Below, one piece after another: positions 2,406 through 64,000 of a stretch of DNA of 64,000 nt. A model generated the notes under the pieces. That model was not told the origin of the DNA. It did not search any database and saw only the letters and a list, made by a program, of their open reading frames with translations. The stretch is from NCBI GenBank assembly GCA_907165275.2, contig OU015672.1, forward strand, positions 8,166,501 to 8,230,500, given 5' to 3'. This stretch comes from Zygaena filipendulae (lineage: Eukaryota; Arthropoda; Insecta; Lepidoptera; Zygaenidae). Every line of letters begins with the position of its first letter. Positions within the stretch are counted from its first letter, which is position 1. A program made the position numbers and the translations under genes.

Positions 2406-2627
2406 TTAACTGTGAATTTATTCATTACGAACCTACATACGTGCCTACCTATATCAAGCATACTAAACAAAATTTGAGATAACAATTTTGGAATCAGGTG
2501 TGGGCCCAACCACTGTCAGTTATGTTAGTTAAGTTGGATAGTATATAAGTTCGAATACAATAGTTGAAAAAAAAAAAACTAAAAAGTTAACTTGACGAGT
2601 AAACTGAACCATATATATATATATATA

Positions 2628-2857
2628 CTAGCTGTTCCCCGCGATTTCATCCGCAGTAATTTCGGAGTTCCCGCGGAGGTTGCGGGAAAAAAGTACTCTA
2701 TGTCCTTCAGTTCCCGCGGGAATTCCGGGATAAAAACTATCCTATCTTTTAAATTGGACCATATTATAAATGGTGACAAAATTTTATCAAAATCCGTTCA
2801 GTAGTTTCGGAGTCCATCGCGGACAAACAACGTGACACGTGATTTATATATATTAGA
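2628..2857 (-). mobile_element. Helitron subfamily B, copy 1 of a tandem pair
   Basis: CTAG at 2628-2631 and GA (5' TC on the minus strand) at 2856-2857. Abuts the next copy with no spacer. Confidence 0.8.
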
Positions 2858-3087
2858 CTAGCTGTCCCCCGCGATTTCATCCGCGGTAATTTCGGAGTTC
2901 CCGCGGAGGTTGCGGGAAAAAAGTACTCTATGTCCTTCAGTTCCCGCGGGAATTCCGGGATAAAAACTATCTTATCTTTTAAGTTGGACTATTTTATGAA
3001 TGGTTACAAAATTGTATCAAAATCCGTTCAGCAGTTTAGGAGTCCATCGCGGACAAACAACGTGACACGTGATTTATATATATTAGA
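2858..3087 (-). mobile_element. Helitron subfamily B, copy 2 of a tandem pair
   Basis: Same length (230 bp) and nearly the same sequence as the preceding copy. CTAG at 2858-2861, GA at 3086-3087. The head-to-tail junction is exact. Confidence 0.8.
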
Positions 3088-3484
3088 TTATCTGTGACTG
3101 AACTAAAAAGTAAGTCATCTAGAACCAGAAAGAGAGTCGCTGTCAAGACCAGTCGAGACTCGAGAGCCTCAATTGGCTAGGTTTAGCGTCGTTTAATTAC
3201 ACAGTTCTGATGGGCACCTTCCGGCTCCATCATCAGATCAGCTCCATGTCATAGTAATAATGCATTGTCATCCGAATTACATGTAAACTTTCATTTCGAT
3301 ACGACAATTAGAAGTTGGTTAAAATTTTCTTGTAAGATTTTATAATTTTTTTAGTTAAAAGGGAAGTGAATTTAATATAAGCATGTAATAAAATGCAATA
3401 GAAGTATATATTTTGATTGTGATGATCGATTCCACTTCAAAGTTTGCTTTCAGAGAGGAAATCGTCGATTTACTATAAAAAATA

Positions 3485-16905: not shown

Positions 16906-17045
16906 CTAGCTGCTCCCAGCGGTTTCACCCGCGTGAGTTTTGAGATCAGCAGTACCTTTGCGGACGCAGGTAGAACAACCCGCCAAAGTTTGATCACAAT
17001 CGGACCAATGGTTTCGAAACACATAAAGGAATGACATACAATCAT
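16906..17045 (-). mobile_element. Helitron 3' fragment
   Basis: CTAGCTGCTCCCAGCGG and GGTTTCACCCGCGTGAG hairpin. A divergent interior (CGGACGCAGGTAGAAC) sets it apart from A-D. Confidence 0.5.
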
Positions 17046-17187
17046 TCATTTTTATTAATTTTTAAGATTAACGCAAAAAATTCAATTTGACTACAAAAAA
17101 AGACCTTATCCAATTATGTTGCCAGGATTATAAAAATGAAAATAACGAACGCAAAATAAGCTGGACACCTAATCTCACCCAAAGAGT

Positions 17188-17202
17188 CGAACACGCGATG
17201 TT
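17188..17202. repeat. Putative target-site duplication, left
   Basis: Pairs with 28143-28157 in direct orientation, with one mismatch at position 11. On the right, five extra bases (GCAGA) separate it from the inverted-repeat end; on the left, one. Confidence 0.55.
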
Positions 17203-17203
17203 G

Positions 17204-19244
17204 GTGAACTTGGCATATCATTTGCCAGCAGATCAATTTTTTTTTAGAGTTCTGTTCGCATGCAGCTGAGTTCTAGAGTTCCTGATACTTTTTAGAAATA
17301 GTTCCGGCATTTAAACCTGAAAAAAACGCTGTTGAAAAAATGATCTGCTAACTTCCCGTAGCAGATCATTTTCCGGAAAATCAAAAATAAAAGTGATTTT
17401 CTTTTGCGTTAAGGTTAGTTGTGGAGTTCCTGATACTTTTCAGAAATAGTTCTGGCGGTCTTACCCTAAAAAAATCAATCCGTAAATATGGGTCTAGAAG
17501 TAAAAATAATTAGGTTTTAATCGTATTAAAACGGTTTTAAAGCTGTTTTGAGGCAAGAAACCTTTTGTTTATTAATTTCCGATATCAGCACTCTAGAATA
17601 GAACTAGATTTAGGTGCAGAACTCCCGTTAAAGAGCCAGCAGATCATAGTACAAAAGTAAAAAAGTATAAAGATAAATTTTAAGTGCTTTCACCAATGCG
17701 TGGACTGGACGTGGAGGCCGAAACTACCTCGTTTCTCACAGATAAGTATCAGAACTTCGATACAGAAGTGGATCGCAAACCAGAACTCCCGTTTAAAATC
17801 CAGCAGATCATGGTAGAGTAGTAAAAAAATTAAAAAATATATTATTTTAACAGTTCCAATAGTACGTGGAGGCCGGAACTCCTTTGTTTCTCACAGATCA
17901 GCATCAGAACTCCGATACAGAAGTGGATCCGAGACCAGGATTCCCGTTTAAAGTCCAGCAGATCATGGTAGAGTAGTTAAAAAGTTAAAGAATATTTATT
18001 TAACAGTTCCACTAGCACGTGGAGGCCGGAACTCCTTTGTTCCTCACAGATCAGTATCAGAACTTCGATACAGAAGTGGATCGTGAACCAGAACTCCCGT
18101 TTAAAATCCAGCAGATCATGGTAGAGCAGGTAAAAAGTTAAAGAATTTTAATTTAACAGTTGCACTACCATGTGGAGGCCGGAACTCCTTTGTTTCTTAC
18201 AGATCAGCATCAGCACTCCGATACGGAAGTAGATCCGAGACCAGAACTCCCGTTTAAAATCCAGCAGATCATAGTAGAGTAGTAAAAAAATTTAAAAAAA
18301 AATATTTCAACAGTTCCACTAGCACGTAGAAGCCGGAACTCCTTTGTTTCTCACATATCAGTATCAGAACTTCGATACAGAAGTAGATCCAAAACCAGAA
18401 CTCCTGTTTAAAATCCAGCAGATCATAGTAGAGTAGTAAAAAAAATAAAAAAATAAAATTTTAACAGTTCCACTAGCACGTGGAGGTCGGAACTCCATTG
18501 TTTCTCACAGATCAGTATAAGAACTTCGATACAGAAGTGGATTGCAAACCAGAACTCCCGTTTAAAATCCAGCAGATCATGGTAGAGCAAGTAAAAAGTT
18601 AAACAATTTTAATTTAACAGTTGCACTACCATGTGGAGGCTGGAACTCCTTTGTTTCTTACAGATCAGCATCAAAACTCCTATACGGAAGTGGATCTCAA
18701 ACCAGAACTCCTGTTTAAAATCCAGCAGATCATGGTAGAGTAGTTAAAAAATTAAAAAAATATTATTTTAACAGTTCCAATAGCACGTGGAGGCCGGAAC
18801 TCCTTTGTTTCTCAAATATCAGTAACAGAACTTTGATACAGAAGTGGATCCAAAACCAGAACTCCCGTTTAAAATCCAGCAGATCATGGTAGAGTAGTTA
18901 AAAAATTAAAAAAATATTATTTTAACAGTTCCAATAGTACGTGAAGGCCGGAACTCCTTTGTTTCTCACATATCAGTACCAGAACTTTGATACAAAAGTG
19001 GATCCAAAACCAGAACTCCCGTTTAAAATCCAGCAGATCATAGTAGAGTTTAAAAAAGGTAAAGAATATTAATTTAACAGTTCCACTAGCACGTGAAGGC
19101 CGAAACTCCTTTGTTTCTCACATATCAGTACCAGAACTTTGATACAAAAGTGGATCCAAAACCAGAACTCCAGTTTAAAATCCAGCAGATCATGGTTTCC
19201 AAAATGTTAAAAGTTAAAAATATTATTTTGATAGTTTGACGTAT
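17204..19244 (+). repeat. Left arm: unique cap plus about 11 units of ~153 bp
   Basis: CAGCAGATCA marks each unit, at about 17638, 17800, 17955, 18108, 18262, 18416, 18570, 18723, 18876, 19030 and 19184. A unit also carries CACGTGGAGGCCGGAACTCC, TTTGTTTCTCACAGATCAG and AACTCCCGTTTAAAATCC. The outer cap (to about 17580) holds a hairpin, AATGATCTGCTA..TAGCAGATCATT, near 17339-17371. Confidence 0.8.
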
Positions 19245-22200
19245 CACACTTATATGTTTGAGATTTAAAAAATCATATTTAATTATAGGATACAGCCAAA
19301 GATGGAAACTCTTTTCTATAGAGTGCAGGACCACTAATTCTCTCGATTACACCTCCCAATGAGACCAGAACTCACATAAAAATATCAGCATATCACACTT
19401 ATATGTTTGAGATTAAAAAAAATCATATTTCATTATAGGATACAGCCAGAGATGGGAACTATTTTCGATAGGTTGTGAGACCACTAATTCTCTCGACTAC
19501 ACCTCCCAATGAGACCGGAACTCACATGAAAATATCAGCATATCACACTTTTATGTTTGAGATTAAAAAAATCATATTTAATTATAGGATACAGCCAAAG
19601 ATGGGAACTCTTTTTTATAGAGTGCAAGGCCACTAATTCTCTCGATCGAACCTTCTGCTGTGACCGGAACTTACATAAAAATATCAGCATATCACACTTA
19701 TATGTTTGGGATTTGAAAAATTCATATTTAATTATAGGATACAGCCAGAGATGGGAACTCTTTTCGATAGGGTGTGAAACCACTAATTCTCTCGACTACA
19801 TCTCCCAATGAGACCGGAACTCACATAAAAATATCAGCATATCACACTTTTATGTTTGAGATTAAAAAATTCATATTTAATTATAGGATACAGCCAGAGA
19901 TGGGAACTCTTTTCCATAGGGTGTAAGACCACTAATTCTCTCGATTACACTTCCCAATGAGACCGGAACTCACATGAAAATATCAGCATATCACACTTAT
20001 ATGTTTGAGATTTAAAAGAATCATATTCAATTTTAGGATACAGCCAGAGATGGGAACTCTTTTCGATAGAGTGTGAGACAAGTAACTTTCTCGACTACAC
20101 CTCCCAATGAGACCGGAACTCACATAAAAATATCAGCATATCACACTTATTTGTTTGAGATTAAAAAATTCATATTTAATTATAGGATACAGCCAGAGAT
20201 GGGAACTCTTTTCGATAGGGTGTAAGACCACCAGTTCTCTCGACTACACCTCCCAATGAGACCGAAACTCACATAAAAATATCAGCATATCACACTTTTA
20301 TGTTTTAGATTAAAAAAATCATATTTAATTATAGGATACAGCCAGAGATGGGAACTCTTTTCGATAGGGTGTAAGACCACTAATTCTCTCGACTACACCT
20401 CCCAATGAGACCGGAACTCACATGAAAATATCAGCATATCACACTTATATGTTTGAGATTAAAAAAAATCATATTTAATTTTAGGATACAGCCAGAGATG
20501 GGAACTCTTTTCGATAGAGTGTGAGACAAGTAATTTTCTCGACTACACCTCCCAATGAGATCGGAACTCACATAAAAATATCAGCATATCACACTTTTAT
20601 GTTTGAGATTAAAAAATTCATATTTAATTATAGGATACAGCCAGAGATGGGAACTCTTTTTGATAGGGTGTAAGACCACTAGTTCTCTCGACTACACCTC
20701 CCAATGAGACCGGAACTCACATAAAAATATCAGCATATCACACTTTTATGTTTGAGATTAAAAAAATCATAATATTTAATTATGGGATACAGCCAGAGAT
20801 GGGAACTCTTTTCGATAGGGTGTAAGACCACTAATTATCTCGACTACACCTCCCAATGAGACCGGAACTCACATAAAAATATCAGCATATTACACTTTTA
20901 CGTTTGAGATTAAAAAAATCATATTTAATTATAGGATACAGCCAGAGATGGGAACTCTTTTCGATAGGGTGTAAGACCACTAATTCTCTCGGCTACACCT
21001 CCCAATGAGACCGGAACTGACATGAAATATCAGCATATCACACTTATATGTTTGAGATTTAAAAAAATCATATTTAATTTTAGGATACAGCCAGAGATGG
21101 GAACTCTTTTCTATAGAGTGTAAGACCACTAATTTTCTCGACTACACCTCCCAATGAAACCGGAACTCACATGAAAATATCAGCATATCACACTTATATG
21201 TTTGGGATTTGAAAAATTCATATTTAATTATAGGATACAGCCAGAGATGGGAAGTCTTTTCGATAGGGTGTAAGACCACTAATTCTCTTGACTACATCTC
21301 CCAATGAGACCGGAACTCACATAAAAATATCAGCATATCACACTTTTATGTTTGAGATTAAAAAAATCATATTTAATTATAGGATACAGCCAAAGATGGG
21401 AACTCTTTTCTATTGAGTGCAAGGCCACTAATTCTCTCGATCGAACCTTCTGCTGTGACCGGAACTCACATAAAAATATCAGCATATCACACTTATATGT
21501 TTGGGATTTGAAAAATTCATATTTAATTATAGGATACAGCCAGAGATGGGAACTCTTTTCGATAGGGTGTAAGACCACTAATTCTCTTGACTACATCTCC
21601 CAATGAGACCGGAACTCACATAAAAATATCAGCATATCACACTTTTATGTTTGAGATTAAAAAAATCATATTTAATTATAGGATACAGCCAGAGATGGGA
21701 ACTCTTTTCGATAGGGTGTAAAACCACTAGTTCTCTCGACTACACCTCCCAATGAGACCGGAACTCACATAAAAATATCAGCATATCACAGTTATATGTT
21801 TGGAATTTGAAAAATTCATATTTAATTATAGGATACAGCCAGAGATGGGAACTCTTTTCGATAGGGTGTGAGACAAGTAATTTTCTCGACTACACCTCCC
21901 AATGAGACCGAAACTCACATAAAAATATCAGCATATCACACTTTTATGTTTGAGATTAAAAAATTCATATTTAATTATAGGATACAGCCAGAGATGGGAA
22001 CTCTTTTCGATAGGGTGTAAGACCACTAATTCTCTCGACTACACCTCCCAATGAGACCGGAACTCACATGAAAATATCAGCATATCACACTTATATGTTT
22101 GAGATTTAAAAGAATCATATTCAATTTTAGGATACAGCCAGAGATGGGAACTCTTTTCGATAGAGTGTGAGACAAGTAATTTTCTCAACTACACCTCCCA

Positions 22201-25200
22201 ATGAGACCGAAACTCACATAAAAATATCAGCATATCACACTTTTATGTTTGAGATTAAAAAAATCATATTTAATTATAGGATACAGCCAGAGATGGGAAC
22301 TCTTTTCGATAGGGTGTAAGACCACTAATTCTCTCGACTACACCTCCCAATGAGACCGGAACTCACATGAAAATATCAGCATATCACACTTATATGTTTG
22401 AGATTTAAAAAAATCATATTTAATTTTAGGATACAGCCAGAGATGGGAACTCTTTTCGATAGAGTGTGAGACCACTGATTTTCTCGACTACACCTCCCAA
22501 TGAGACCGGAACTCTCATATAAATATCAGCATATCACACTTTTATGTTTGGGATTTGAAAATTCATATTTAATTATAGGATACAGCCAGAGATGGGAACT
22601 CTTTTCGATAGGGTGTAAGACCACTAATTCTCTCGACTACACCACCCAATGAGACCGGAACTCACATGAAAATATCAGCATATCACACTTATATGTTTGA
22701 GATTAAAAAAATCATATTTAATTATAGGATACAGCCAAAGATGGGAACTCTTTTCTATAGAGTGCAAGGCCACTAATTCTCTCGATCGAACCTTCTGCTG
22801 TGACCGGAACTCACATAAAAATATCAGCATATCACACTTATATGTTTGGGATTTGAAAAATTCATATTTAATTATAGGATACAGCCAGAGATGGGAACTC
22901 TTTTCGATAGGGTGTAAGACCACTAATTCTCTTGACTACATCTCCCAATGAGACCGGAACTCACATAAAAATATCAGCATATCACACTTTTATGTTTGAG
23001 ATTAAAAAAATCATATTTAATTTTAGGATACAGCCAAAGATGGGAACTCTTTTCTATAGAGTGCAAGGCCACTAATTCTCTCGATCGAACCTTCTGCTGT
23101 GACCGGAACTCACATAAAAATATCAGCATATCACACTTATATGTTTGGAATTTGAAAAATTCATATTTAATTATAGGATACAGCCAGAGATGGGAACTCT
23201 TTTCGATAGGGTGTAAGACCACTAGTTCTCTCGACTACACCTCCCAATGAGACCGGAACTCACATGAAAATATCAGCATATCACACTTATATGTTTGAGA
23301 TTTAAAAAAATTATATTTAATTTTAGGATACAGCCGGAGATGGGAACTCTTTTCGTTAGAGTGTGAGACAAGTAATTTTCTCGACTACACCTCCCAATGA
23401 GACCGAAACTCACATAAAAATATCAGCATATCACACTTTTATGTTTGAGATTAAAAAATTCATATTTAATTATAGGATACAGCCAGAGATGGGAACTCTT
23501 TTCGATAGGGTGTAAGACCACTAATTCTCTCGACTACACCTCCCAATAAGACCGGAACTCACATAAAAATATCAGCATATCACACTTTTATGTTTGAGAT
23601 TAAAAAATTCATATTTAATTATAGGATACAGCCAGAGATGGGAACTCTTTTCGATAGGATGTAAGACCACTAATTCTCTCGACTACACCTCCCAATGAGA
23701 CCGGAACTCACATGAAAATATCAGCATATCACACTTATATGTTTGAGATTTAAAAAAATCATATTTAATTTTAGGATACAGCCAGAGATGGGAACTCTTT
23801 TCGATAGAGTGTGAGACCACTGATTTTCTCGACTACACCTCCCAATGAGACCGGAACTCTCATAAAAATATCAGCATATCACACTTTTATGTTTGGGATT
23901 TGAAAATTCATATTTAATTATAGGATACAGCCAGAGATGGGAACTCTTTTCAATAGGGTGTAAGACCACTAATTCTCTCGACTACACCACCCAATGAGAC
24001 CGGAACTCACATGAAAATATCAGCATATCACACTTATATGTTTGAGATTTAAAAAAATCATATTTAATTTTAGGATATAGCCAGAGATGGGAACTCTTTT
24101 CGATAGAGTGTAAGACAAGTAATTTTCTCGACTACACCTCCCAATGAGACCGGAACTCACATAAAAATATCAGCATATCACACTTTTATGTTTGGGATTT
24201 GAAAATTCATATTTAATTATAGGATACAGCCAGAGATGGGAACTCTTTTCGATAGGGTGTAAGACCACAAATTTTCTCGACTACACCTCCCAATGAGACC
24301 GAAACTCACATAAAAATATCAGCATATCACACTTTTATGTTTTAGATTAAAAAAATCATATTTAATTATAGGATACAGCCAGAGATGGGAACTCTTTTCG
24401 ATAGGGTGTAAGACCACTAATTCTCTCAAATACACCTCCCACTGAGACCGGAACTCACATAAAAATATCAGCATATCACACTTATATGTTTGGGATTTGA
24501 AAAATTCATATTTAATTATAGGATACAGCCAGAGATGGGAACTCTTTTCGATAGGGTGTGAGACCACTAATTCTCTCTACTACATGTCCCAATGAGACCG
24601 GAACTCACACAAAAATATCAGCATATCACACTTTTATGTTTGAGATTAAAAAAATCATATTTAATTATAGGATACAGCCAGAGATGGGAACTCTTTTCTA
24701 TAGAGTGCAAGGCCACTAATTCTCTCGATCGAACCTTCTGCTGTGACCGGAACTTACATAAAAATATCAGCATATCACACTTATATGTTTGGGATTTGAA
24801 AAATTCATATTTAATTATAGGATACAGCCAGAGATGGGAACTCTTTTCGATAGGGTGTAAGATCACTAGTTCTCTCGACTACATCTCCCAATGAGACCGG
24901 AACTCACATAAAAATATCAGCATATCACACTTTTATGTTTGAGATTAAAAAAATCATATTTAATTATAGGATACAGCCAGAGATGGGAACTCTTTTCGAT
25001 AGGGTGTAAGACCACTAATACTCTCGACTACACCTCCTAATGAGACCGGAACTCACATAAAAATATCAGCATATCACACTTTTATGTTTGAGATTAAAAA
25101 ATTCATATTTAATTATAGGATACAGTCAGAGATGGGAACTCTTTTCTATAGAGTGCAAGGCCACTAATTCTCTCGATCGAACCTTCTGCTGTGACCGGAA

Positions 25201-26864
25201 CTCACATAAAAATATCAGCATATCACACTTATATGTTTGGGATTTGAAAAATTCATATTTAATTATAGGATACAGCCAGAGATGGGAACTCTTTTCGATA
25301 GGGTGTAAGATCACTAGTTCTCTCGACTACATCTCCCAATGAGACCGGAACTCACATAAAAATATCAGCATATCACACTTATATGTTTGGGATTTGAAAA
25401 ATTCATATTTAATTATAGGATACAGCCAGAGATGGGAACTCTTTTCGATAGGGTGTAAGACCACTAATTCTCTCTACTACATCTCCCAATGAGACCGGAA
25501 CTCACATAAAAATATCAGCATATCACACTTTTATGTTTGAGATTAAAAAAATCATATTTAATTATTGGATACAGCCAGAGATGGGAACTCTTTTCTATAG
25601 AGTGCAAGGCCACTAATTCTCTTGATCGAACCTTCTGCTGTGACCGGAACTTACATAAAAATATCAGCATATCACACTTATATGTTTGGGATTTGAAAAA
25701 TTCATATTTAATTATAGGATACAGCCAGAGATGGGAACTCTTTTCGATAGGATGTAAGACCACTAGTTCTCTCGACTACATCTCCCAATGAGACCGGAAC
25801 TCACATAAAAATATCAGCATATCACACTTTTATGTTTGAGATCAAAAAATCATATTTAATTATAGGATACAGCCAGAGATGGGAACTCTTTTCGATAGGG
25901 TGTAAGACCACTAATTCTCTCGACTACACCTCCTAATGAGACCGGAACTCACATAAAAATATCAGCATATCACACTTTTATGTTTGAGATAAAAAAAATC
26001 ATATTTAATTATTGGATACAGCCAGAGATGGGAACTCTTTTCTATACAGTGCAAGGCCACTAATTCTCTTGATCGAACCTTCTGCTATGACCGGAACTTA
26101 CATAAAAATATCAGCATATCACACTTATATGTTTGGGATTTGAAAAATTCATATTTAATTATAGGATACAGCCAGAGATGGGAACTCTTTTCGATAGGAT
26201 ATAAGACCACTAGTTCTCTCGACTACATCTCCCAATGAGACCGGAACTCACATAAAAATATCAGCATATCACACTTTTATGTTTGAGATTAAAAAATTCA
26301 TATTTAATTATTGGATACAGCCAGAGATGGGAACTCTTTTCTATAGAGTGCAAGGCCACTAATTCTCTTGATCGAACCTTCTGCTGTGACCGGAACTTAC
26401 ATAAAAATATCAGCATATCACACTTATATGTTTGGGATTTGAAAAATTCATATTTAATTATAGGATACAGCCAGAGATGGGAACTCTTTTCGATAGGGTG
26501 TAAGACCACTAATTCTCTCTACTACATCTCCCAATGAGACCGGAACTCACATAAAAATATCAGCATATCACACTTTTATGTTTGAGATTAAAAAAATCAT
26601 ATTTAATTATTGGATACAGCCAGAGATGGGAACTCTTTTCTATAGAGTGCAAGGCCACTAATTCTCTCGATCGAACCTTCTGCTGTGACCGGAACTCACA
26701 TGAAAATATCAGCATATCACACTTATATGTTTGAGATTTAAAAAAATCATATTTAATTTTAGGATACAGCCAGAGATGGGATCTCTTTTCGATAGAGTGT
26801 GAGACCACTGATTTTCTCGATTACACCTCCCAATGAGACCGGAACTCACATAAAAACTCCAAAT
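19245..26864 (+). repeat. Satellite array, about 51 copies of a ~149.5-bp unit
   Basis: GGATACAGCC recurs from 19288 to 26762 at a near-constant 149-150 bp spacing, all in one orientation. A unit holds ATATCAGCATATCACACTT, ATGTTTGAGATT, AGAGATGGGAACTCTTTTC and AATGAGACCGGAACTCACAT. A variant type ending CGATCGAACCTTCTGCTGTG occurs ten times, spaced at whole multiples of the unit. The paired ORFs of 82 and 84 residues on both strands are repeat translations. Confidence 0.9.
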
Positions 26865-28137
26865 ATACGTCAAACTATCAAAATAATATTTTTACATTTA
26901 TAATGCTGGAAACCATGATCTGCTAGATTTTAAACAGGAGTTCTGGTCTCGGATCCACTTCCGTATAGGAGTTTTGATGCTGATCTGTAAGAAACAAAGG
27001 AGTTCCAGCCTCCACATGGTAGTGCAACTGTTAAATTAAAATTGTTTAACTTTTTACTTGCTCTACCATGATCTGCTGGATTTTAAACGGGAGTTCTGGT
27101 TTGCAATCCACTTCTGTATCGAAGTTCTTATACTGATCTGTGAGAAACAATGGAGTTCCGACCTCCACGTGCTAGTGGAACTGTTAAAATTTTATTTTTT
27201 TATTTTTTTTACTACTCTACTATGATCTGCTGGATTTTAAACAGGAGTTCTGGTTTTGGATCTACTTCTGTATCGAAGTTCTGATACTGATCTGTGAGGA
27301 ACAAAGGAGTTCCGGCCTCCACGTGCTAGTGGAACTGTTAAATAAATATTCTTTAACTTTTTAACTACTCTACCATGATCTGCTGGACTTTAAACGGGAA
27401 TCCTGGTCTCGGATCCACTTCTGTATCGGAGTTCTGATGCTGATCTGTGAGAAACAAAGGAGTTCCGGCCTCCACGTACTATTGGAACTGTTAAAATAAT
27501 ATATTTTTTAATTTTTTTACTACTCTACCATGATCTGCTGGATTTTAAACGGGAGTTCTGGTTTGCGATCCACTTCTGTATCGAAGTTCTGATACTTATC
27601 TGTGAGAAACGAGGTAGTTTCGGCCTCCACGTCCAGTCCACGCATTGGTGAAAGCACTTAAAATTTATCTTTATACTTTTTTACTTTTGTACTATGATCT
27701 GCTGGCTCTTTAACGGGAGTTCTGCACCTAATTCTAGTTCTATTCTAGAGTGCTGATATCGATCATTAAGAAACAAAAGGTTTCTTCCCTCAAAACAGCT
27801 TTAAAACCCTTTTATTACGATTAAAATCTAATTATTTTTACTTCTAGACCCATATTTACGGATTGATTTTTTTAGGGTAAGACCGCCAGAACTATTTCTG
27901 AAAAGTATCAGGAACTCCACAACTAACCTTAACGCAAAAGAAAATCACTTTTATTTTTGATTTTCCGGAAAATGATCTGCTACGGGAAGTTAGCAGATCA
28001 TTTTTTCAACAGCGTTTTTTTCAGGTTTAAACGCCGGAACTATTTCTAAAAAGTATCAGGAACTCTAGAACTCAGCTGCATGCGAACAGAACTCTAAAAA
28101 AAAATTGATCTGCTGGCAAATGATATGCCAAGTTCAC
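26865..28137 (-). repeat. Right arm: inverted, five repeat units shorter
   Basis: TGATCTGCTGG units at about 26914, 27069, 27222, 27376, 27531 and 27695. By unit-specific variants, the outer three match the left units at 17638, 17800 and 17955, and the inner ones those at 18416, 18570 and 18723. The left units between 17955 and 18416, and three inner ones, have no counterpart. The arm is about 770 bp shorter, equal to five units. Confidence 0.75.
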
Positions 28138-28142
28138 GCAGA

Positions 28143-28157
28143 CGAACACGCGACGTT
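28143..28157. repeat. Putative target-site duplication, right
   Basis: See the left partner at 17188. Direct, not inverted, so it is not simply more arm sequence. Confidence 0.55.
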
Positions 28158-28590
28158 TTCTCGTGAAATATTATCTACCAAAAAAAAAAAGTAGGTATAG
28201 CCATCGAATGGAGCCTCATTATAATTCAGACTGAGTTGGGTCAACAACATCGAAATATCCACAGAAGACATTTTGGCGTCATGTACTTATGTTTGAGTTT
28301 TAGATCCATTTTGTTTGATAGTTATACAATAATTTTGTCGATGTTAGATTTTATTTTCCTTTACTGTAACTTCCAACTCTACACTTCGATGGGAGAATTA
28401 AAAAGAAAAATCTTAAACGAATTTTACTAAGGCAAACCTTTTCCACTAAAGTTACCACTTCCCAAAACTAGATGGCGCTTTCGAGTTTTCCGAATCGCGC
28501 ATAAAGCGAAGTGCCGCAAGTCGCAAGATGCTCGAGCTCGAGCTCGACAAATCTCACTACCACCTCGTATAACAAAATATATCATTGAAA
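28158..28590. other. Unassigned
   Basis: No repeat match within the window. CTCGAGCTCGAGCTCGA at 28531 is a short palindromic run. No supported gene. Confidence 0.4.
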
Positions 28591-28690: not shown

Positions 28691-29067
28691 CATTTTCCGA
28701 TATTTCAACAATTATCGTTATAATCGACCAATTTACCCAAAACCTTGACAAATTATGTACCTATTATAATAAATTACATAAAACCTTCCTTATGAATCAC
28801 TCTATTTATTTGTGGCCGCATGAGAATCCGATAGGTAAGTAGTTTTCTATTTTACTGTCTATCCCGAACTGACAGACAGAAGGCAGACAGCGATTCTGAC
28901 AAGGCGTTATTTTCTTGATAGAGAATTTTCGTTACATCGTCACAATAAACTCCAAACAAGCTTTTTGACAAACTCCAAGCGTTTCGTTTTCTGCTCACGC
29001 TGACGATTTGGTTTCAACAGCAGCAGACACGAAACTAATGTCTCTCAAATCATTGTAACTTCCATAT

Positions 29068-29303
29068 GGAAAGAGATAAGCAATAGTGTGTTAACCCACA
29101 CTGGAGAAATATTGAGTAAATCGTGTTTTAAAAGTAGGAGCGCCATTTTGTATCAACATTTTTTATGTTCAATATTTAGTTACATATTTAAGCAATGTAA
29201 TAAGGTAAACAAATAATTAAAAAACGTTCCCTAACTCTCAATAAATCGTTCTGAATCACTAACATAATTTTGTGGGTTAACATGTTACTGCTTATCTGCG
29301 TCC
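29068..29303 (-). mobile_element. GATAAGC MITE (family M1), 236 bp
   Basis: Ends GGAAAGAGATAAGCAATAGT and GGACGCAGATAAGCAGTAAC (inverted). Flanked by ATAT at 29064-29067 and 29304-29307, a 4-bp duplication. Contains GCGCCATTTTGT and GGTTAACATG words shared with the other five copies; orientation opposite to them. Confidence 0.85.
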
Positions 29304-29307
29304 ATAT

Positions 29308-30130
29308 TATCTACATTTGTTTTTTTTTTTTTTGACCAGCGTTTATACGTTTGCGGAAAAGTAATTTTGTCTATGGAAGCTAGACAGTCTCGACACCTTA
29401 TATGGTTAATGGTCTATATGCAAATGCACAGCACTAAATCATGAATTTCAAAGAATTTTATTACGACTGACGCGAACGCATACGCCTTCGGTCACTGCCA
29501 TAAACTTGTTAGACGGTACTTAAGCATTATCAGTTTTGGTTAATCTGTTTTGAGCATTCAAAAATCCTTTCTTTGAATTGGCGCTTGGATGATAGTGGAG
29601 AATCAAGAGCCTGTCAGCGGTACAATTTTGATTTTAGTATTATTAATAGTTATAATAATTTATGGTTTTGTAGATATTTGTCGAGGAGAATTTGCTGTAT
29701 TAAAAGGTATCTATGTACCAAAACTGTAAATTTTGATAACAGTGACAACAGCCAACAGCATACAATAATAATACCATTTTCGCTCTTAAAAAACCTTTTT
29801 GCAGGAAGGTTGTGTCTTATATCACGTGATCTCACCCGATTGAGGTTTCAAGGCGAACGTGTCCCGAACTCCCCAAAAAAATCAGAAGATCGAGGTCATT
29901 GGACCTCCTTTCTTCGCATGTAACTTAAATGTATATGAGACTAGTTGTTGAACTTTGTTTTTGATGTGTTTATAGATTTTATACGATACATCAGTTACTT
30001 CCTTACGTAAAAAAGTCCTCCGTTGCGTCTGTCTGTCTGTCTATCTGTCTGTTCGCGATAAACTTAAAAATGACTGAAATTGTTTTCATGCGGTTTTCGC
30101 CAATAGATAGAGTGATTAAAGGGGATGGTT
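29308..30130. other. Unassigned; Helitron-like sliver at 30020-30130
   Basis: The 116-residue ORF at 29573-29923 has no recognisable domain, biased composition and no splice context; I do not call it. CTGTCTGTCTATCTGTCTG near 30030 and TCATGCGGTTTTCGCC are a Helitron C internal piece. Confidence 0.35.
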
Positions 30131-33562: not shown

Positions 33563-33578
33563 AAGATAATGACACTTA

Positions 33579-33815
33579 CCGCCGCACTCAGAGTCGACTT
33601 TAATTATTACTCAGTTAAGTATAGATTTTTAAAACAAAACCGCCGCTATCAGACAAGTTTAATAAATTAATGTTAATTGGCATTTAACTAATTAAGTTAC
33701 ATCTCATTAAATGCCAATTGACATTAATTTACTGAACGTCTCTGATTGCGGCAGTTTTGTTTTAAAAATCTATACTTAACTAAGTAATCATTAAAGTCGA
33801 CTCTGAGTGCGGCCG
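33579..33815. mobile_element. Palindromic MITE (M3), 237 bp
   Basis: Arms of about 110 bp: CGCCGCACTCAGAGTCGAC inward to TTAAATGCC-type loop, and AGTCGACTCTGAGTGCGGCC. Flanked by TTA on both sides (33576-33578, 33816-33818), a PIF/Harbinger-like site. A second copy lies 1.1 kb away in opposite orientation. Confidence 0.75.
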
Positions 33816-33879
33816 TTACTCTCTCTAGAACTTACTCACTTACTCCCTTTAGAATATTAGTTTAGATTTCATTATTGGC

Positions 33880-34710: not shown

Positions 34711-34947
34711 CCATCGCACTCAGAGTCGACTTTAATGATTACTTAGTTAAGTATAGATTTTTAAAACAAAACTGCCGCAATCAGAGACGTTCAGTAAATT
34801 AATGTTAGTTGGCATTTAATGAGACGTAACTTAATTAGTTAAATGCCAATTAACAATAATTTATTAATCTTGTCTGATTGCGGCAGTTTTGTTTTAAAAA
34901 TCTATACTTAACTAAGTAATCATTAAAGTCGACTCTGAGTGCGGCCG
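34711..34947. mobile_element. Palindromic MITE M3, second copy (inverted)
   Basis: The loop GGCATTTAATGAGACGTAAC is the reverse complement of the loop in the 33579 copy, so the pair is in opposite orientation. Right end GAGTGCGGCCG; left end degraded (CATCGCACTC). Confidence 0.72.
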
Positions 34948-37999: not shown

Positions 38000-38355
38000 T
38001 CCTACTTAATATTATAAACGCGAAAGTTTGTACGAATGTATGGATGGATTGATGTTTGTTACTCTTTCACGCTAAAACTACTGAATGGATTTAAATGAAA
38101 CTTTACAATAATATAGCTTATACATCAGATTAACACATAGGTTACTTTTATCCCGGAATTCCTGCGGGAACTCTGAAATTAACGGGGGTGAAATCGCGGG
38201 GCACAACTAGTAGTACACAAAACTACTGAATGTATTTAAATGAAACTTTACAATAATATAGCTTACACATCAGATTAACACATAGGGTACTTTTATTCCG
38301 GAATTCCTGCGGGAACTCTGAAATTAACGGGGGTGAAACCGCGGGGCACAACTAG
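38000..38355 (+). mobile_element. Helitron subfamily A plus a tandem 3' partial copy
   Basis: TC-CTACTTAATATTATAAACG start, CTAG at 38207-38210. A second copy of its 3' ~135 bp follows, ending CTAG at 38352-38355. Both keep GGGGGTGAAA variants, so the second arose from the first. Confidence 0.75.
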
Positions 38356-38442
38356 TAGTACATAAAGGCCTACGTGTTAAATACCATATGTTATTAACCA
38401 TCAACCAAATATTTGCAAGTGTAGGCAGACTTACTCAAATTT

Positions 38443-42593: not shown

Positions 42594-43570
42594 TTAACCG
42601 ACTTCCAAAAAGGAGGAGGTTCTATGTTCGATTGTATGTATGTTTTTTTTTTTTTTTTTTTTTATGTATGTTCACCGATTACTCGAAGACGGTTGGACCG
42701 ATTTCAAAAATTCTTTTTTTGTTTGAAAGGGTATACTCCCAATTAGGTCCCATTGCCACCAAGTCGGGATCTGATGATGGGATCTTGGAGAAATCGAGGG
42801 AACTCTTCAAAAATTATAGGCACACCTATAGCGATTTGGGTATTTTTTATAGTAAATCGTTCATTTGCTTTCGAAAAGCAAAATTTGAAGAAGTGGAATT
42901 GATGATGAAGACCACAGATGGTCATCGGAACTACTCAACAATAATACGTATTTCAGGGGTTCTAGTAAGAGCGATTTGGAAAATTTATGTTCGTCACAAT
43001 GTACATGGTGAAGTGGAACTGATGGTGGTGTACCAGCAGAACTCCTCAAAAATTAACGTCCCTGCATCGGGAAAAGCAATATTTTGTAAAAGGTTATGAG
43101 CAGTTAACAGTAGGCTAATGTAACTTAGATAAATTACAAACCGACTCACTAAAAAGCAAGAAATAAACAATTTTTAACAAAAAAATTAAAACCAACTTCC
43201 AAAAACACAAATCTAAAAAAGCTAAAAATAACAAAATACCGATTTATTCCAAAAGACAAAAACACACGTAATATTATTATTGGTTTGTGCTACCACTGAT
43301 CGGTATGAAGTCGGTGACAAGCCAAATATGGAGGGGGTAGATGGGCTAAGTCGTCTCCTGCCACCAGCTCTTCGTGAGCAAAACAACTCAAGTGGGCAGA
43401 CACCAGCGGGTTTGTCACCGAATTCAAACCGATCAGTGGTAGCACAAACCAATAATAATATTACGTGTGTTTTTGTCTTTTGGAATAAATCGGTATTTTG
43501 TTATTTTTAGCTTTTTTAGATTTGTGTTTTTGGAAGTTGGTTTTAATTTTTTTGTTAAAAATTTGTTTAT
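42594..43570 (+). repeat. ACCGACTTCC element ending in a large palindrome
   Basis: ACCGACTTCCAAAAAGGAGG start, poly-T run, TATAGGCACACCTATAGCG, then two GAAGTGGAACTGATG repeats (about 42891, 43010). The element finishes in the 43171-43566 palindrome. The 155-residue ORF (42632) and two mirrored 76-residue ORFs are translations of it. A shorter relative is at 63030-63386. Confidence 0.6.
43171..43566. repeat. Near-perfect palindrome, arms about 155 bp, loop about 85 bp
   Basis: The left arm (ACCAACTTCCAAAAACACAA.. to ..CTACCACTGATCGGT) and right arm (ACCGATCAGTGGTAG.. to ..GGAAGTTGGTTTTAATT) match base for base over most of their length. The stem-proximal TCGGTGACAA also pairs. Confidence 0.85.
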
Positions 43571-63386: not shown

Positions 63387-63435
63387 ATTCAGAACAACAT
63401 GTAAAAAAGTAATGTAATGACAAATATTTTTACAG

Positions 63436-64000
63436 GTAAACCGAGAGAATCACGAGGTGCTTCTTCCGATCTCCCGTCTATAAGAAAAGAACCATTCACA
63501 CATCTATCAGAGAAAGAACTTATCGACGAAGCAAACAGAGTCCTTGCGCAAGCCCAGAGTGTCACTTGCACAGCTGACCATCCACCGGAGAAATTTTTCT
63601 CTCTGCCTCACAGGAAAAAGTTAAAAGAAGACAAATCTGCGAGAAGAAACAGCGACGACAGCAGTACTCCTGAAGCTAAAAGAAAGTCTAATCTAGGTAG
63701 GTCCACTAGTGATGTGACTTCTAAAAGGAAAAGAGAGAGAACTTCTTTGTCGACTCTTTTTAGAAGAGCACAAAGGACTAAGAGCCCTGACACAACACCA
63801 GTTGCAGTAAGGCCTGTAGCTATTGTTAAAAGAAGCAAAAGCGACGTAACAGATTTAAAATCGAAACAAACAAATACTTTAACTGGTGCTCAACCTAAAC
63901 CTAAAAGGAAAAGATCGGGAAGTGAAAGTGAAGAGTTTCTCAAGTCATTAAGAAATACAAAAACTCAGCTATCGCCTATTATCGAAAGCTCACCGAGAGA
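63436..64000 (+). CDS. Second coding exon of the same gene (3' side cut by window edge)
   Basis: An acceptor (ATTTTTACAG) precedes GTAAACCGAG. Joined to the upstream exon the frame is open for 187 codons (residues 56-243) to the window end. There is no internal stop and no early ATG, so an ATG-based search misses it. An acidic/amphipathic stretch (residues 79-96, LSEKELIDEANRVLAQAQ) is followed by repeated basic clusters that could act as nuclear localisation signals: KRKRER (152-157) and KPKRKR (210-215). Many Ser/Thr sit in basic contexts, for example RRNS at 125-128, a PKA-type consensus. Codon use and composition look genuinely coding, unlike the surrounding repeats. No enzymatic domain is visible; the family is not identified. 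Confidence 0.72.

Follow-up and report, generated by a model that had tools for sequence, protein, structure and literature searches.

What is the ~11-kb structure that occupies positions 17188-28157 (flanking words counted) of the window, by which we mean the whole 64-kb stretch of DNA analysed: a transposable element, and if so, one of a kind not yet described? A sequence-only reading had proposed inverted arms, each composed of a cap and ~153-bp tandem units, around a one-way satellite of ~149.5 bp present in about 51 copies. Tandem Repeats Finder recovered three arrays, at 17709-19196 (period 154, 9.7 copies), 19242-26856 (period 149, 50.9 copies) and 26912-27632 (period 153, 4.7 copies). 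The arms are mutually inverted (left, 17204-19237; right, 26862-28137), and the 98.0% identity of their caps, together with the repeat arrays, confirmed the proposed arm structure. The satellite was as described: when unit starts were anchored on a 21-nt word with up to 5 errors allowed, 51 starts were found in a single orientation, spaced 147-154 bp apart. Long terminal inverted repeats (TIRs) composed mostly of tandem subrepeats are one mark of foldback elements, and the arms are of this construction (Table 1).

Table 1. Features of the element, in window positions, with the strand on which each is read.
Feature	Position	Strand	Basis or remark
Left 11-bp direct repeat CGAACACGCGA, inferred target duplication	17188-17198	+	Ends at 17202 under the 15-bp reading
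Left non-inverted 5-nt end, TGTTG	17199-17203	+	Under the 11-bp reading
Left cap, outer TIR domain, starting with GTGAACTTGG	17204-17708	+	Alignment, 98.0% over 505 bp to 28137-27633
Tandem units of ~153 bp, left arm	17709-19180	+	Repeat finding and unit alignment
Left-arm inner domain, finishing in TTTGACGTAT at the satellite border	19181-19237	+	Alignment, 71% to its right-arm partner; ~60 bp per arm
One-way satellite of ~149.5 bp, 51 units, between the inner arm ends TTTGACGTAT (left) and ATACGTCAAA (right)	19238-26861	+	Borders accurate to ~10 bp
Right-arm inner domain	26862-26927	-	Alignment
Tandem units of ~153 bp, right arm; left arm less 307 bp and 460 bp	26928-27632	-	
Right cap (TIR)	27633-28137	-	Inverted alignment to left cap, 505 bp
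Right non-inverted 5-nt end, TCTGC reading inward on the - strand	28138-28142	-	
Right 11-bp direct repeat CGAACACGCGA	28143-28153	+	Ends at 28157 under the 15-bp reading

A second mark of foldback elements is a target-site duplication beside both ends, and the flanks had been said to carry a direct repeat of ~15 bp. The word CGAACACGCGAYGTT lies at 17188 and at 28143, on the + strand in both cases; the 64 kb contains no other occurrence on the + or the - strand. The repeat is therefore present, direct and on both sides, but its perfect portion is the 11 bp CGAACACGCGA rather than 15 bp; this portion is followed by YGTT, so that 14 of the 15 positions match. When 19,841 pairs of 25-bp windows were drawn at random from the background, 4 reached a 14-of-15 match; of 19,708 pairs of 30-bp background windows, 21 had an exact word of at least 11 bp in common. 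Among the 20 of these 21 background words that were listed, 6 consisted of A and T only, 5 others had a G+C content below 20% and 4 resembled dispersed G+C-rich repeats of the window; CGAACACGCGA has 7 G/C bases among its 11. The direct repeat outside both ends exceeds chance, and as a target-site duplication, seen at this one insertion, its preferred length is 11 bp.

This preference comes from the ends of the element. GTGAACTTGG is common to both arms, reading inward from 17204 and from 28137. With a duplication of 11 bp, exactly 5 nt separate it from GTGAACTTGG at each end (TGTTG and TCTGC), and with one of 15 bp, 1 nt remains at one end and 5 nt at the other, and a mismatch has to be accepted. 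Because the ends are symmetric at 5 nt and no mismatch is involved, we prefer a target duplication of 11 bp, as it appears from a single insertion; the extra agreement in YGTT would then be a chance match at three of four positions. A 15-bp duplication carrying one mismatch is possible, because the match between the flanks runs on as YGTT. CpG decay was considered as the source of the single Y difference and was dropped, given that the flanks have CpG observed/expected ratios of 1.24 and 1.17. A TIR element mobilised by transposases of a group not yet described, with target duplications of 14-16 bp, would fit the 14 of 15 flank positions that agree, but it requires both the mismatch and the unequal ends, neither of which is required by 11 bp, and we regard it as unlikely.

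Could the structure have formed without any transposase? Satellites and inverted repeats are fragile DNA, and a palindrome or inverted duplication of satellite-like DNA might have been produced by break repair with fill-in of staggered ends, an origin that the additional nucleotides between direct repeat and arm would also suit. However, both 505-bp caps break off abruptly at one and the same base, and beyond the direct repeat the longest match between the two flanks is 15 bp, a word of a dispersed repeat; break repair is, in our judgement, quite improbable. Transposition is the simplest reading of this single copy, and the caps and the flanking repeat bear out the earlier proposal of a TIR-bounded unit with a direct repeat at both ends. 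A macrotransposon, in which the satellite would lie between two whole elements, was rejected: among the matches listed, no likeness to an inverted cap is seen at the inner end of either arm.

The two arms differ in length in a regular manner. When the right arm was aligned to the left arm by an alignment permitted to jump, it resolved into a mosaic of the left-arm blocks 17204-18049 (846 bp, 10 mismatches), 18357-18687 (331 bp, 0 mismatches) and 19148-19243 (95 bp, 9 mismatches); an extra terminal piece of 16 aligned bp, with 5 mismatches, was taken as satellite-side noise. The first two blocks jointly show 10 differences over 1177 aligned bp (<1%), and the left-arm stretches absent from the right arm are exactly 2 units (307 bp) and 3 units (460 bp) long. 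Left-arm units L2-L10 differ from one another by 4-21%, and the divergent first unit, L1, by up to 32% from them. A gain of units by the left arm was rejected, since fresh duplicates should match the arm-level likeness of 10 differences in 1177 bp and the most similar pair of left-arm units is 96% alike. Losses of whole units from the right arm are the better reading, because the left arm contains no near-identical unit pairs. Within the first block, nine of its ten mismatches are clustered in the 96 bp at 17514-17609, a patch that looks like a gene-conversion-like replacement of one arm by a sibling copy; if so, other copies of the element exist. The direct repeat on the outer flanks, the whole-unit deletions in an arm and this clustered patch would all be unexpected had two arrays been falsely joined in the assembly, and we consider such a misjoin very improbable.

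The satellite units have a mean pairwise identity of 0.898. Neighbouring units are 0.878 identical, compared with 0.915 and 0.923 for units 2 and 11 apart, and the satellite thus shows a mild higher-order pattern. Because satellite units differ by ~10% and the first two arm blocks by <1%, an old array may lie within a young insertion, or the arms may have been homogenised by conversion. A further account, compatible with the foldback transposon favoured below, is that a short foldback element inserted first and that the satellite arose or arrived later, at this one locus, and never moved with it. The near-integral array (50.9 copies) is what would be expected from the growth of one middle unit, and the long arrays of Tetris, a foldback element of Drosophila virilis, are thought to have grown within the inserted element (PMC4079207). 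Against a late satellite, units ~10% diverged beside arms that differ at 10 of 1177 bp would be unusual unless conversion homogenises the arms, and we lean against this account while regarding it as a real possibility.

Is the satellite different from the arm units, as had been proposed? Arm and satellite units share a box, GAACTC-13 nt-AGCA(G/T)ATCA, at fixed spacing, the satellite being oriented as the left arm. With both strands counted, there are 14 copies of AGCAGATCA in the left arm and 9 in the right, and the satellite has 49 copies of AGCATATCA; neither form of AGCA(G/T)ATCA was found on either strand in the other 53.1 kb of the window. In the arm orientation, GAACTC lies exactly 19 bp upstream of the box in 10 of 13 cases in the left arm, 5 of 8 in the right arm and 38 of 49 in the satellite; no other spacing occurs within 40 bp of the box. 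A profile of the arm units had 50 matches in the satellite, every one of them on the + strand, and 3 in the reversed satellite, the matched places being copies of one unit; its best score was 5.1 bits in the satellite versus 4.0 bits in unsplit background. At a threshold of at least 2 bits it matched 13 of the 51 satellite units and nothing in background cut into 353 pieces, a null that is too lenient because the unsplit background contained one 4.0-bit match; 28 of the 51 units had no arm-profile match at all. In the reverse test, the satellite profile gave 14 matches in the arms, 10 of them on the + strand, and 0 in the reversed arms, with a best score of 1.8 bits versus 3.4 bits in background, so that, judged by score, this reverse comparison gave homology no support. 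The arm-satellite local score was reached by 7 of 1000 dinucleotide shuffles, and the ungapped match of 23 in 32 by 61 of 3000 background 149-mers. From these comparisons, common ancestry of the arm and satellite units appears plausible to probable. The description of a different satellite therefore needs qualification: the ~149.5-bp unit is different or strongly diverged, but it shares the GAACTC-N13 box with the arms, and the support for descent is mixed.

No long reading frame was found within the element. Its longest stop-to-stop frame, of 107 aa, lies in the satellite, where such frames recur with the units, and the chance frames of satellite and arm had no match when searched as proteins. 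The possibility that the repeats contain a ribozyme or another known RNA was considered and rejected, as Rfam gave no match at E<=1 in 17000-28400, and none at gathering score in the 64-kb window. The element, in which no coding capacity was found, is likely to be non-autonomous. Long frames are not densely packed in the 64 kb as a whole, which contains 3 of at least 120 aa, and a Pfam scan of 10 of the 116 listed window frames returned one match, below its cut-off. The sparseness of long frames and the familiar look of the repeats suggest that the DNA is probably that of an insect. At the edge of the window, an open frame at 63405-63998 reaches past it; a search of the protein collection gave this frame a single relative, with 77% identity across 30% of the query, and it is probably an exon of a host gene.

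Outside the element, the cap had no match at E<=1e-3 within the 64-kb window. The 16-base TIR end had 56 matches in genome_contigs, fewer than the ~120 that chance alone would give in 257 billion bases. Scans of viral_contigs with the 23-base TIR end and with a satellite word of 17 bases gave 0 matches each. The flank word of 15 bases gave 79 matches and an arm word of 18 bases gave 2; in the first 30 comparison rows for these 81 loci, matches of 16-29 bp to the arm and left flank were seen and none to the satellite, and we judged the 81 matches to be due to chance. The window carries other repeats as well. An inverted repeat at 43169-43563 (155-nt arms, 98% complementary, 85 nt apart) is a small MITE-like element unrelated to the foldback element. 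Two hairpin-like inverted repeats, at 33571-33823 and 34715-34943 (arms of 117 and 105 nt, 19 nt between them), are mutually inverted copies with 96% identity over 236 nt, and a ~260-bp repeat at 29067-29326 has five copies in opposite orientation (34158, 36650, 38438, 44492 and 47071; 87-93% identical) and represents an interspersed family. Two-copy tandem arrays at 2614-3095 and 38074-38366 (230 and 145 bp) include stretches of a repeat that is dispersed across the window.

Foldback elements with composite arms have been described from flies, plants, sea urchin and nematodes (PMC4079207, PMC3169594), and Tetris is a close parallel. It has no conserved frames; its long TIRs consist of an outer flanking domain, then subrepeats, then an inner domain; and it combines a variable middle with satellite-like arrays and a suggested link to Mutator (PMC4079207). 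By the same description, however, its subrepeats are ~220 bp long and its satellite-like arrays, of up to 66 copies, consist of the arm repeat, whereas here a one-way ~149.5-bp array lies between the arms; its target duplications are 8-10 bp, compared with 11 (or 15) bp here (PMC4079207). For Mutator-like elements, target duplications of 8-11 bp (PMC6446971) or 9-11 bp (PMC4334395) are given; the duplication seen here would fall within this range if read as the perfect 11 bp, but the match is prolonged as YGTT. Arthropod Mutator-like elements are reported to have TIRs of 13-1193 bp and in most cases G/C in the first three terminal bases (PMC13359780), a tendency from which the ends found here, TGT and TCT under the 11-bp reading, depart; Aedes Muta1 is classed as a type 2 foldback element (PMC5225508). 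Tm1, a Mutator/Foldback element of root-knot nematodes, resembles the present element in that its TIRs are composite and differ in their number of tandem repeats, in short non-inverted motifs separating TIR from target duplication and in having some non-coding members, but its subrepeats are ~14 bp, its end motifs 7 bp and its duplications 8-10 bp, mostly 9 (PMC3169594). The word satellite is absent from the main text of that paper.

Other families are less similar. Galileo, of the P superfamily, has long TIRs that contain tandem repeats, in numbers that may differ between arms, but its target duplications are 7 bp and its repeats ~210 bp, in two or three copies (PMC3573991, PMC3688188), compared with the perfect 11-bp direct repeat here; the word satellite is absent from PMC3573991. 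Rehavkus, from insects and annelids, combines TIRs with an internal minisatellite placed before the 3' TIR, but its description includes an encoded transposase, a 9-bp duplication and TIRs of 26-400 bp (PMC6446971). The present element has 11 bp and no long frame. Helitrons and Helentrons are not known to have target duplications or kilobase TIRs, and both are present here. They are mobile elements with central satellite-like arrays, but of the rolling-circle type (PMC12628747).

We therefore consider it fairly likely that the element is a non-autonomous foldback-type DNA transposon, probably Mutator-like, which inserted with an 11-bp duplication and has a 51-copy satellite as its unusually large core. 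Because 11 bp is the top of the Mutator-like range and Tm1 has similar ends, the oddity of a "15-bp" duplication is mostly removed. The earlier view that no described family has this design is weakened by the duplication, which if read as 11 bp is within the Mutator-like 8-11 bp, and by the published Tetris, but the satellite core is indeed unusual: in the accessible part of the open-licence PubMed Central literature we found no description of a foldback element with a different or strongly diverged satellite core. On present evidence, this is a real, well-formed foldback-type element with an unusual core and not a categorically new kind.

Under the Mutator-like foldback reading, a transposase encoded elsewhere would recognise the caps, and the AGCAGATCA boxes recurring in the arm units would be putative secondary transposase-binding sites, probably aiding recognition. 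This role is suggested by analogy, because such sites in the TIR tandem repeats of Galileo were shown by gel shift (PMC3688188). Cut-and-paste insertion would have produced the 11-bp duplication, and the arms would afterwards have been trimmed by in-phase unequal exchange or slippage; gain and loss of units in repeat arms by unequal exchange are described for Galileo (PMC3573991) and Tetris (PMC4079207). The satellite would have expanded centrally by a like exchange, and its starting point may have been an ancient relative of the arm unit. A more far-reaching proposal is that arms and core both derive from one ancestral box-bearing unit of ~150 bp, kept as a binding repeat in the arms and amplified into a 7.6-kb core that travels as cargo and seeds arrays, which we put forward as speculative and, on balance, doubtful.

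How satellites are born and how they spread to new chromosomal sites is an open question. If this copy stands alone, it would be a variant of what Tetris already shows. If it is indeed a satellite-cored foldback element with arm-related units, it would serve as a concrete vehicle for new satellites as well as their source.
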